Source: Fidelibacterota bacterium (GTDB lineage: Bacteria; Fidelibacterota; Marinisomatia; Marinisomatales; TCS55). From it: a DNA stretch of 64,000 nucleotides. The translations under genes were made by a program, and so were the position numbers. The notes under the pieces were generated by a model. It saw nothing but the letters and a program-made list of their open reading frames with translations. It made no database searches and was not told the DNA's origin. Shown one piece after another: positions 45,756 through 48,024 of this stretch (the first letter of the stretch is position 1; each line of letters opens with the position of its first letter). Where the stretch lies: contig JAERSH010000044.1 in assembly GCA_016845785.1 (NCBI GenBank), positions 1 to 64,000 of the forward strand, given 5' to 3'.

Positions 45756-46718
45756 ATGAATCATCTCTTAAAATCAAATCGAATTTTAATTTTTGTTACC
45801 ACATTAATGTCCACAGTAATCTGGGCTCAAGATGTGAATGTTACATATCCTGTTGCAGAAATTGAGCGAAAGCTTACCCATGACGAGTTTACAATTTTCA
45901 GATTCCGGGATCTCCGATTTAAAGGAGATATCGGGAAACGAGTCATACTCCAATACCCTGATCGAAAGGATTTACAAATCAAGTGGAGACGAGCTTTGCC
46001 AGGTGGACATGAGTTCAATAATGCGCCTCGATTTGAAGTTGCTGCGTACCAATTACAAAAATTATTTCTGGATGAAACCAATTTTGTAGTTCCCCCTACT
46101 GTGGTCCGAGGATATAGTTTTGAAGATTATAAAACGATTGAATCTGATGCGGATCCTACATTTAAGAAACCAGATATAGTAATTGTAATGCTTCAATATT
46201 GGCTAAACGAGGTGACCGTTGGTGGTGAAGTTTACAATAAGAAAAAATTCAATTCTGATCCAGTTTATGCCAAACATTTCGCAAATACAAATATCATGAC
46301 TTATATCATTAATCATCAGGATAGCAATGAGGGTAATTTACTGACATCAACGAATGCTGAAAATCCTCGTGTATTTACGGTGGATAATGGTGTCACATTT
46401 AGTAGTCCAAAAAGTAATAGAGGGGCAAAGTGGAAACATATCCGTGTGAAAAAACTACCGAAAGATACTATAGAGAAATTGCAGGGATTATCCTCAGGGA
46501 CCTTATATGAAAAGATGGGTGTTATTGCTCAATTTGAATATGTAGATGGTAAAGTTTTATCTGTAAATCCTACAGAAAATATCAATCCAAATAAAGGCGT
46601 GCGCCAATCAGGAAACATTGTTCAGTTTGGATTAACAAAAAGAGAAATTCGAGATGTGGAAAAGAAAATAAAGACTATTTTAAAACAAGTGGAAAAAGGA
46701 AAATACGATTTAATTTAA
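45756..46718 (+). CDS. secreted protein with kinase-like fold signatures
   Basis: The 320-residue protein has a signal peptide (FVTTLMSTVIWAQ, residues about 10-25). It then shows several kinase-like landmarks. Lys76 is in LQIKWRRALPGG and Glu94 is in RFEVAAYQLQKLFL. VPPTVVRGY follows, then INHQDSNEGNLLTS (residues 186-198, H187-x-D189-x-N191) and VDNGVTF (D210). This resembles HipA/PI3K/FAM20-type catalytic loops (D-x-N-x-GN...DNG). A function as a periplasmic or extracellular kinase is an inference; pseudokinase or non-kinase is possible. It is monocistronic, with TTGGAGGA before the ATG. Confidence 0.6.
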   Translation: MNHLLKSNRILIFVTTLMSTVIWAQDVNVTYPVAEIERKLTHDEFTIFRFRDLRFKGDIGKRVILQYPDRKDLQIKWRRALPGGHEFNNAPRFEVAAYQLQKLFLDETNFVVPPTVVRGYSFEDYKTIESDADPTFKKPDIVIVMLQYWLNEVTVGGEVYNKKKFNSDPVYAKHFANTNIMTYIINHQDSNEGNLLTSTNAENPRVFTVDNGVTFSSPKSNRGAKWKHIRVKKLPKDTIEKLQGLSSGTLYEKMGVIAQFEYVDGKVLSVNPTENINPNKGVRQSGNIVQFGLTKREIRDVEKKIKTILKQVEKGKYDLI

Positions 46719-46746
46719 TTCAGAATATATAAACATGCCCGACCCA

Positions 46747-46986
46747 TTATAACTTCATCTGATTTAACCATTTTTGTCCTTCAGCGGATTTGAAAAACCG
46801 CTCCCTTATAATGGCGTCTTTTTCAAATTTAAACTTTTCAGAATAAATCACTTCCCATGGGCGATGATCTCGCGTTGCCCTAACATTTCTCGCATTGTGC
46901 TGATTCAATTGGGATTTTAGGTTTTTGCAATGGCCTACATAACGATGTTTGCCATCGATGGATCGAAGTACATAAGAAAAATACAT
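46747..46986 (-). CDS. GIY-YIG nuclease, copy 1 (Arg to Gln change)
   Basis: The 79-residue single-domain GIY-YIG protein reads MYFSYVLRSIDGKHRYVGHC (the GIY- and YIG-equivalents are SYV and YVG). NLKSQLNQHNARN and AIIRERFFKSAEGQKWL follow. In the family, an Arg at the start of the following helix (KSRLNQHN in copy 2) is catalytic; this copy has Gln. The conserved Glu (IIRERFF) is kept. It therefore looks degraded relative to copy 2. A tRNA-Leu 3'-end fragment lies 7 nt upstream (46994-47053). Confidence 0.9.
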   Translation of the reverse strand: MYFSYVLRSIDGKHRYVGHCKNLKSQLNQHNARNVRATRDHRPWEVIYSEKFKFEKDAIIRERFFKSAEGQKWLNQMKL

Positions 46987-46993
46987 AATGTAG

Positions 46994-47053
46994 TGCCCGA
47001 GACTGGAGTCCCCGCCAGCCCTCCCGTTGGTCGGGAGCGGGCTGGGAACCAGC
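46994..47053 (-). repeat. tRNA-Leu 3'-end fragment with 35-nt hairpin insert, copy 1
   Basis: Read on the minus strand, this 60-nt segment holds GCTGGTTC, then a 35-nt GC-rich insert (47011-47045), then GACTCCAGTCTCGGGCA. The tRNA parts match the 3' 25 nt of the adjacent tRNA-Leu(CAG) exactly. The insert splits the T-loop between TTC and GACT. It holds CTCCCG/CGGGAG arms. It is 59/60 identical to copy 2. Confidence 0.93.
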
Positions 47054-47292
47054 TATATCCCTTGATTATCCAGCCACTTTCTCCCAAAGCCGGACTTTAA
47101 ATATCTCTCCCTCGAAACGGCTTCTGCTCTGGTCTTGAAAGATTCTGAGTGAACGATTTTCCATGGACGAAAAGCTTTCGTTGCTTTCACATTCCTTGAA
47201 TTATGTTGATTTAATCGAGATTTAAGATTCTTGCAATGGCCTACATAGCGATGTTTGCCATCGATGGATCGAAGTACATAAGTAAAATACAT
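47053..47292 (-). CDS. GIY-YIG nuclease, copy 2 (intact catalytic Arg)
   Basis: This 79-residue GIY-YIG protein reads MYFTYVLRSIDGKHRYVGHC. It keeps the catalytic Arg (KNLKSRLNQHNSRN) and the Glu (VSRERYLKSG). The ATG is at complement 47290-47292; the open frame runs further upstream into the tRNA fragment, but that part is not coding. It is about 60% identical in protein to copy 1 and nearly identical in DNA at the 5' end. Small free-standing GIY-YIG proteins are usually of unknown function; here the arrangement suggests a homing-like nuclease. Confidence 0.92.
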   Translation of the reverse strand: MYFTYVLRSIDGKHRYVGHCKNLKSRLNQHNSRNVKATKAFRPWKIVHSESFKTRAEAVSRERYLKSGFGRKWLDNQGI

Positions 47293-47299
47293 AATGTTG

Positions 47300-47359
47300 T
47301 GCCCGAGACTGGAGTCCCCGCCAGCCCTCCCGTTGGTCGGGAGCGGGCAGGGAACCAGC
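47300..47359 (-). repeat. tRNA-Leu 3'-end fragment with 35-nt hairpin insert, copy 2
   Basis: It has the same layout as copy 1, with insert at 47317-47351 and tRNA parts GCTGGTTC (47352-47359) and GACTCCAGTCTCGGGCA (47300-47316). One base differs from copy 1 (47349 versus 47043). It lies 18 nt beyond the intact tRNA-Leu 3' end. Confidence 0.93.
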
Positions 47360-47377
47360 ATATTTTATTAATTGAAG

Positions 47378-47461
47378 TGCCCGAGACTGGAGTCGAACCA
47401 GCACGTCTGTTAGGACACACGGACCTGAACCGTGCGCGTCTACCAATTCCGCCACCCGGGC
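47378..47461 (-). tRNA. tRNA-Leu (anticodon CAG)
   Basis: This 84-nt class II tRNA on the minus strand has acceptor stem GCCCGGG/CTCGGGC with one G-T pair. AATTGGTAGACGCG is in the D region. Anticodon stem CACGG/CCGTG flanks loop TTCAGGT, giving anticodon CAG for CUG. T-arm GCTGGTTCGACTCCAGT and discriminator A are present. CCA is not encoded. Its 3' 25 nt are repeated in the two adjacent GIY-YIG units. Confidence 0.96.
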
Positions 47462-47565
47462 ATAAAAAATCGGTCGAAAATTAAGATTTTGGTTATTCGA
47501 TGGGCAAGGAATAAACTTGGAAGCGGAAAGGCGAATTCCGTAGTTTTGCCGTCAGAATTTTGACT

Positions 47566-48024
47566 ATGGATAATCAGGTTGTCGCCACCAATCGCAAAGC
47601 CTTCCACGAATATCACATCCTGGATACCTATGAAGCCGGTATCGAATTATTGGGAAGTGAAGTAAAAAGTCTGCGGGAAGGCAATGCCAATATTAAAGAA
47701 GCATATGTCGCGATCCGTAAAGGACAGGCATGGGTGGTTGGTGTGCATATTAATCCTTATTCCCATACGGGGACCGAAGGTCATGAACCGGTGAGGAATC
47801 GGCGACTATTACTCCATAAAAGGGAAATTTCAAAAATACAGGCATCTTTGGATCAAAAAGGATTAACAGCTGTACCATTGAAAATATATTTTAATAATAA
47901 AGGAAGGGCAAAATTAGAAGTTGGAATGGCGAAAGGAAAAAAGACTTTTGATAAGAAAGATGCCATCAAAGAACGAGATATTAAGCGCGATGCACAACGG
48001 GAATTACGGAATAGAGGAAGATGA
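47566..48024 (+). CDS. smpB: SsrA-binding protein SmpB
   Basis: SmpB binds tmRNA and brings it to stalled ribosomes. The 152-residue protein has the beta-barrel core: NRKAFHEYHILDTYEAGIEL, GSEVKSLREGNANIKEAYV and PLKIYFNNKGRAKLEVGMAKGKK. The basic C-terminal tail (KKDAIKERDIKRDAQREL) folds in the ribosomal decoding site. ATG at 47566 is chosen over the in-frame TTG at 47560. Its stop overlaps the tyrS start (ATGA). Confidence 0.96.
   Translation: MDNQVVATNRKAFHEYHILDTYEAGIELLGSEVKSLREGNANIKEAYVAIRKGQAWVVGVHINPYSHTGTEGHEPVRNRRLLLHKREISKIQASLDQKGLTAVPLKIYFNNKGRAKLEVGMAKGKKTFDKKDAIKERDIKRDAQRELRNRGR

Follow-up and report, generated by a model that had tools for sequence, protein, structure and literature searches.

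Small GIY-YIG units that probably invade tRNA genes and rebuild their target

How did an intact tRNA-Leu(CAG) gene in a Fidelibacterota genome come to be followed by two broken copies of its own 3′ end, each leading into a small GIY-YIG nuclease gene? The site lies in a stretch of 64,000 nt (GCA_016845785.1, contig JAERSH010000044.1, positions 1 to 64,000), here called the window; its genome, a Candidatus Neomarinimicrobiota MAG, is G000. The intact gene (47377..47461, minus strand; ARAGORN, Rfam RF00005 and boundary analysis) and both GIY-YIG ORFs share the minus strand, and the site is flanked by smpB and by a gene on the opposite strand. Read along the minus strand, tRNA-Leu is followed by a spacer of ~17 nt, then by TGCTGGTTC, a 35-nt hairpin and GACTCCAGTCTCGGGCAC, and after 6 nt by ORF1; behind ORF1 stand GCTGGTTC, a hairpin and GACTCCAGTCTCGGGCAC, and after 6 nt ORF2. 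The two partial tRNA copies (TGCTGGTTC or GCTGGTTC plus GACTCCAGTCTCGGGCAC) are 26-27 nt long, and both are split at TTC^GAC by the 35-nt hairpin, whose two versions differ in one base. The two fragment/ORF units start 306 nt apart, and the G of the ORF1 stop codon TAG is also the first base of the next fragment. Much of this had been predicted from the sequence: the copies, each interrupted by a 35-nt hairpin (their length was put at 25 nt), the two 79-codon GIY-YIG ORFs beside an intact tRNA-Leu(CAG), borne out by PF01541, ARAGORN and Rfam, and the stop codon overlapping the next unit. The spacer before each ATG, given as 7 nt, is 6 nt. A tRNA-like tail after ORF2 (TGGGTCGGGCATG, 46734-46746) was set aside as too short to rely on.

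The original prediction took the array for two 306-bp head-to-tail duplicates, a description that has to be replaced. Measured from a cut in the T-loop at TTC^GAC (47394..47395, minus strand; tRNA position 67/68 of 85), a point common to both inserts, one inserted piece measures 78 bp and the other 306 bp, so a resident ORF preceded by two insertions is the better description of the array. Excision of everything from the TTC^ of the tRNA to the end of each hairpin takes out exactly 78 bp in the first step and 306 bp in the second, leaving tRNA-Leu, 6 nt and ORF2; this is the order found in the sister species G012 and G009, where an intact tRNA stands 4-5 nt ahead of the ORF2 orthologue. From these boundaries and that order it follows that each insert delivered a new tRNA 3′ end, and that the original one (GACTCCAGTCTCGGGCAC, 46993..47010, minus strand) still lies, displaced, 6 nt ahead of ORF2. 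Each inserted piece starts with GACTCCAGTCTCGGGCAC and ends with the hairpin. Insert A (47317..47394, minus strand, 78 bp) consists of the tRNA 3′ end, the 17-nt spacer, GCTGGTTC and hairpin 1 (47317..47351, minus strand); on the insertion model, the last 18 nt of tRNA-Leu(CAG) (47377-47394) would be its left end. It has no ORF and is a non-autonomous unit, comparable to an ORF-less unit behind the tRNA-Leu(CAG) of G014 (L217). Insert B (47011..47316, minus strand, 306 bp) is an autonomous unit made of the tRNA 3′ end, the 6-nt spacer, ORF1 (47053..47292, minus strand), CTGGTTC and, at its right end, hairpin 2 (47011..47045, minus strand). A point of the TTC^GAC type is used in many other tRNAs as well.

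A group I or group II intron was ruled out, as no Rfam intron fold was matched at the insertion (46500-47700, E up to 5). No integrase is encoded: the only gene-length ORF in the inserts is the GIY-YIG gene, and 78 and 306 bp leave no room for an integrase. A Y1 HUH transposase is likewise absent, PF01541 being the only domain in the two ORFs.

To see how widely such ORFs accompany tRNA genes, GIY-YIG proteins were gathered from relatives, from the phylum, from a Bacteroidota order and from a Patescibacteria class, in a sample consisting mostly of MAGs, one per species. They fall into 175 distinct loci in three phyla: at 127 a tRNA or tmRNA gene is found no more than 400 nt away, at 37 none is, and 11 are undecidable because of contig ends. 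The linked share (127/164 decidable loci) compares with 2-7% expected by chance, and in all 127 the ORF is on the RNA gene's own strand, its ATG often lying no more than 16 nt from the 3′ end of the tRNA. The neighboring tRNA or tmRNA was aligned to the remainder of the locus, and a second partial copy was scored when the best alignment outscored every one of 100 shuffles; 98 of the 127 loci have such a copy, against 3 of 127 in a control with tRNAs of mismatched identity; about a quarter of the tRNA-linked loci have no detectable second copy. The possibility that these ORFs occur equally often without tRNA fragments, which would have told against the original prediction, is answered by these counts. 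Hairpin-like inserts at TTC^GA are found in Leu, Ser, Met, Glu and Arg genes, and elsewhere the D-loop, the anticodon arm or tmRNA is affected. In a mirror form, seen at L024, L028 and L045, the order is partial 5′ half, ORF, intact tRNA. ORF clades track the RNA gene: 27 labels on 119 rows require 52 label changes, where the lowest of 200 shuffles requires 88, on a tree built from 86 columns in which many forks are open. The tmRNA-linked ORFs of Neomarinimicrobiota and Patescibacteria form one supported clade.

The smpB/tRNA-Leu site itself occurs in several states among relatives: empty (for example in G005, G008 and G011), with the ORF alone (G009, G012), with ORF and fragment (G020, G021, G024), with the fragment alone (G014), with a decayed ORF (G001, G010) and with the tRNA lost (G007, G004). 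Such presence and absence at a conserved site is one of the features of free-standing homing endonucleases. At another tRNA-Leu(CAG) site, two species of genus g10 differ by 316 bp at TTC^GAT, present in G039 and absent from G026; with the 316 bp taken out, G039 is 95.6% identical to G026 across the junction. The two are an exact occupied/unoccupied pair that does not itself give the direction of change, and pairs of this kind could equally have arisen by gain or by precise loss through recombination between the tRNA repeats. The comparison of empty and occupied tRNA-Leu sites proposed with the original prediction has thus yielded empty, ORF-only, fragment-only and occupied forms and one exact pair.

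Each insert sits at one exact T-loop point and opens with a whole tRNA 3′ end; a GIY-YIG ORF or just a spacer comes next, then the T-stem GCTGGTTC and a hairpin, with the old tRNA 3′ end displaced behind the hairpin. The ORF lineage follows tRNA identity. We consider it probable that these are minimal, homing-like mobile elements: a single-domain GIY-YIG nuclease would drive their entry into tRNA genes, and the target would be rebuilt in the process. The nuclease would cut an unoccupied tRNA gene in the T-loop, and repair from an occupied copy would install the tRNA 3′ end, the ORF, the T-stem and the hairpin. As the element would deliver a functional 3′ end, the tRNA would be whole again and the host would survive. 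The hairpin at the distal junction would form the right end of the element and break the target in the displaced copy. The ORF may be expressed by read-through from the tRNA promoter, and ORF-less units such as the 78-bp insert A, having the same ends, would move in trans. The earlier idea of a minimal element that uses the tRNA 3′ end as its target survives in part: a minimal GIY-YIG element is tied to the 3′ half of the tRNA, but insertion takes place in the T-loop, and the hairpin forms the far end of each insert. Against the homing-like reading, the nuclease has no separate DNA-binding domain with which it would recognize one tRNA gene, and the anatomy does not explain how the intact tRNA in an occupied cell escapes cutting. 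The linked loci with no second copy and the 37 loci away from any tRNA or tmRNA gene count against it too.

The two ORFs match PF01541 with E values of 9e-18 (ORF1, 47053-47292) and 1.5e-13 (ORF2, 46747-46986). ORF1, with 79 codons, keeps all conserved residues (Y5, Y16, G18, R26, H30 and E62), including the catalytic set of GIY-YIG homing endonucleases. AlphaFold2 models it as a single domain (pLDDT 95.5), and no separate DNA-binding domain is present in the protein, the GIY-YIG domain filling its 79 aa. The nearest solved folds in Foldseek are UPF0213 BH0048 and the branched-DNA nuclease Slx1, with no match below E 0.001 and a best probability of 1.00. By analogy with Slx1, it is plausible that an ORF1-type nuclease recognizes a hairpin or cruciform, and the hairpin may be the structure recognized. 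A different role for the same parts would be an RNA decoy or toxin-antitoxin system resembling type III, in which the tRNA itself would be the nuclease's substrate, and the tRNA fragments, transcribed and blocked by the hairpin, would serve as antidote or decoy. This would suit the constant single strand of ORF, fragment and tRNA, a hairpin that blocks exactly the loop and whose structure is conserved by compensatory changes, and the fact that fragments can be tandem (G043). We regard it as improbable nonetheless: the ORFs of G009 and G012 are among several for which no fragment was detected, 13 of 20 T-arm sites have no nearby ORF, other members of the protein family occupy 23S rRNA or lie next to inverted repeats in protein genes, and the nearest folds include a nuclease of DNA branches. 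The protein at the site is GIY-YIG, not a ToxN-family endoribonuclease.

A generic T-arm/hairpin pattern, designed from examples already seen, occurs in 25 of 244 genomes of the phylum (about 50 matches listed), and its reversed control in none; the arrangement is far beyond chance. A search with the hairpin core only, independent of the tRNA flanks, placed 20 of 31 sites in the TTC^hairpin^GA frame, 19 of these 20 beside an intact tRNA. An ORF lies within 500 nt at 7 of the 20 sites, and the other 13 have none nearby, so ORF-less units exist; besides the 78-bp insert A in the window, they include three 80-bp units behind tRNA-Leu(TAG) in G008. Hairpin 1 folds as an extended T-arm, and across 15 T-arm hairpins the covariation is 0.198 against 0.079 when shuffled, the pairing being backed by compensatory changes; the percentage of paired bases alone proves little, because the structure was drawn from the same sequences. 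As two of its helices cross, the structure may be a pseudoknot or alternate between two states. The 35 nt of hairpin 2 also stand in a T-arm fragment behind tRNA-Arg(TCT) in the same genome (G000:C7:10212-10257, L101), with no ORF.

One could still suppose two independent things, GC-rich palindromes that, in the manner of Rickettsia palindromic elements, invade any dead tRNA copy and a GIY-YIG ORF that is a separate passenger or a host repair gene. TCCCGA-type palindromes in G000 do occur outside tRNA-linked loci, 35-nt hairpins lie outside tRNA in G094, G218 and G028, and fragments are found without an ORF. Against this, the hairpin sits at the junction of old and new tRNA, where the window inserts and the G039 insert end exactly, and the ORF family is present in 24 of the 25 genomes with the T-arm pattern compared with 131 of 244 overall (Fisher 1.5e-6, a value that ignores shared ancestry). 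On this balance an independent origin of hairpin and ORF seems unlikely, and a dispersed hairpin family moving independently of tRNA is only partly true as a description. In G000, TCCCGA...TCGGGA palindromes were recorded at 12 sites (L089-L100), 12 per strand against 1 in the reversed control, mostly in dispersed hairpin repeats away from tRNA genes.

ORF2 (46747..46986, minus strand, 79 codons) differs from ORF1 in descent and in its active site. In the ORF tree it joins the single ORFs of G012, G009, G007 and G004 (support 100/99) and ORF1 falls outside that group, which indicates that ORF1 was added upstream of a resident ORF2. The two genes are 97% identical over codons 1-20 (the first 60 nt) and 56-57% identical over codons 38-78; the identical part suggests, at the level of sequence, gene conversion across the hairpin and the 5′ end of the ORF. 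Local tandem duplication of one unit, or an assembly artefact, would suit the 306-nt spacing, the near-identical hairpins and this shared start, but is very unlikely, because the ORF tree rules out simple tandem duplication at tRNA-Leu(CAG), the 3′ halves of the ORFs differ by >40%, too much for an artefact, and arrays also occur in the one-contig genome G043 (four 692-bp units), where local duplication does seem to have occurred. ORF2 carries R26Q and so lacks the catalytic set seen in ORF1; the catalytic Arg is kept in 161 of 167 proteins, with Gln only in the ORF2 lineage (n=5) and Ile in one other. Pairwise dN/dS is 0.04 for ORF2 against G012, where dS is saturated, and 0.10 for G007 against G004. 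Together, the Arg-to-Gln change and the low dN/dS suggest that ORF2 is probably an old, cleavage-dead resident still kept by selection. In G000, a new element (ORF1) and a non-autonomous unit would then have landed ahead of this older gene. In G007 and G004 (L012, L013) the smpB site has lost tRNA-Leu(CAG) and kept the Arg-to-Gln ORF, with a dN/dS of about 0.1, and the sequences suggest a domesticated protein.

Several known systems share features with these units. Islands, ICEs and prophages that tyrosine integrases insert at tRNA 3′ ends carry a replacement 3′ end and leave a displaced 3′ fragment, and in the window, too, a displaced partial 3′ copy flanks the element. The units described here, however, have no integrase, measure 78-316 bp rather than kilobases, carry a hairpin inside the displaced copy and have a mirror-image 5′ form. 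Rickettsia palindromic elements and REP/RAYT systems are small palindromes that spread; in the present units, by contrast, the palindrome comes attached to a tRNA fragment, in many cases with a GIY-YIG ORF as well, and there is no Y1 transposase. For SegB, a free-standing GIY-YIG homing endonuclease of T4-like phages, tandem amplification of the tRNA/nuclease segment is reported (PMC2988022, PMC13096335). Like the ORFs studied here, it is a GIY-YIG gene without intron or intein among tRNA genes, and the tandem array at tRNA-Asp in G043 resembles its segmental amplification (PMC13096335). SegB is nevertheless encoded by phages, and its target, a sequence that contains tRNA, lies at a distance from its own gene, whereas the present units encode a 79-aa single-domain protein in bacterial chromosomes, insert into the tRNA gene and rebuild its 3′ end, and have a hairpin border and ORF-less derivatives. 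SegB-like enzymes and tRNA-targeting islands each have half of the anatomy. A phage origin was rejected, the only phage matches being two remote Staphylococcus phage hits at 34% identity. UPF0213 (BH0048, PDB 1zg2) and Slx1 resemble the ORF proteins in fold and sequence; Slx1 works with Slx4 on branched DNA, and the UPF0213 entries come from structural genomics and carry no assigned role. Insertions in rRNA genes of CPR bacteria are reported to encode GIY-YIG proteins and to match neither group I nor group II introns, in a paper that makes no mention of tRNA and, in the passages considered here, of neither target rebuilding nor a hairpin border (PMC11270868). They are similar in placing GIY-YIG genes in structural RNA genes without a known intron, and two ORFs of the present family (L241, L247) lie inside a 23S rRNA gene in Patescibacteria. 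In the open-access literature we found no description of a unit of tRNA fragment, hairpin and GIY-YIG gene, and an earlier one may exist elsewhere; the presence of similar units in tRNA genes of at least three bacterial phyla suggests a minimal mobile element of a little-known kind.

Small genes of the GIY-YIG (UPF0213-like) type are common. If the homing-like reading is true, then in Neomarinimicrobiota, Bacteroidota and Patescibacteria a large share of these genes would be mobile elements residing in tRNA and tmRNA genes, and the hairpin-broken tRNA fragments behind many tRNA genes would be accounted for. At 306 bp, the unit would be among the smallest protein-coding mobile elements, with a way to enter an essential gene harmlessly by repairing it in the same step. 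A bolder view, which we put forward tentatively and which may well prove too generous, is that of a separate class of transposable element: one small GIY-YIG nuclease would carry a hairpin-ended module of 80-320 bp into structural RNA genes, at their loops, and the module would supply the missing half of the gene every time. Such a class would include non-autonomous derivatives, each tRNA would have its own sub-lineage, at least three phyla would be covered, and a sister clade would do likewise with inverted-repeat ends in protein genes.

Some further loci deserve mention. The genome of the window has two more GIY-YIG ORFs, L003 (G000:C44:202877-203086) and L004 (G000:C10:2294-2512), which sit behind tRNA-Ser(TGA) and tRNA-Ala(GGC), respectively, with matching broken tRNA fragments. 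In the one-contig genome G043 (L187, G043:C1:2678800-2683200), tRNA-Asp is followed by four identical-scoring 692-bp GIY-YIG units and by about a dozen 100-bp tRNA-Asp 3′ fragments, in each of which TCCCGACATGTCGGGA or a near copy replaces the 5′ half of the T-arm. The sister clade without tRNA comprises the ORFs L051, L052, L061, L242, L288, L295, L298 and L303, which are flanked by the inverted repeats CCCCGTTAGA/TCTAACGGGG or CCCTGTGAAATA/TATTTCACAGGG and lie in or beside protein genes. Judging the genes by eye, the element at L061 splits a recombinase-like gene, and at L052 the 5′ end of an epimerase-like gene seems to be restored behind the element.
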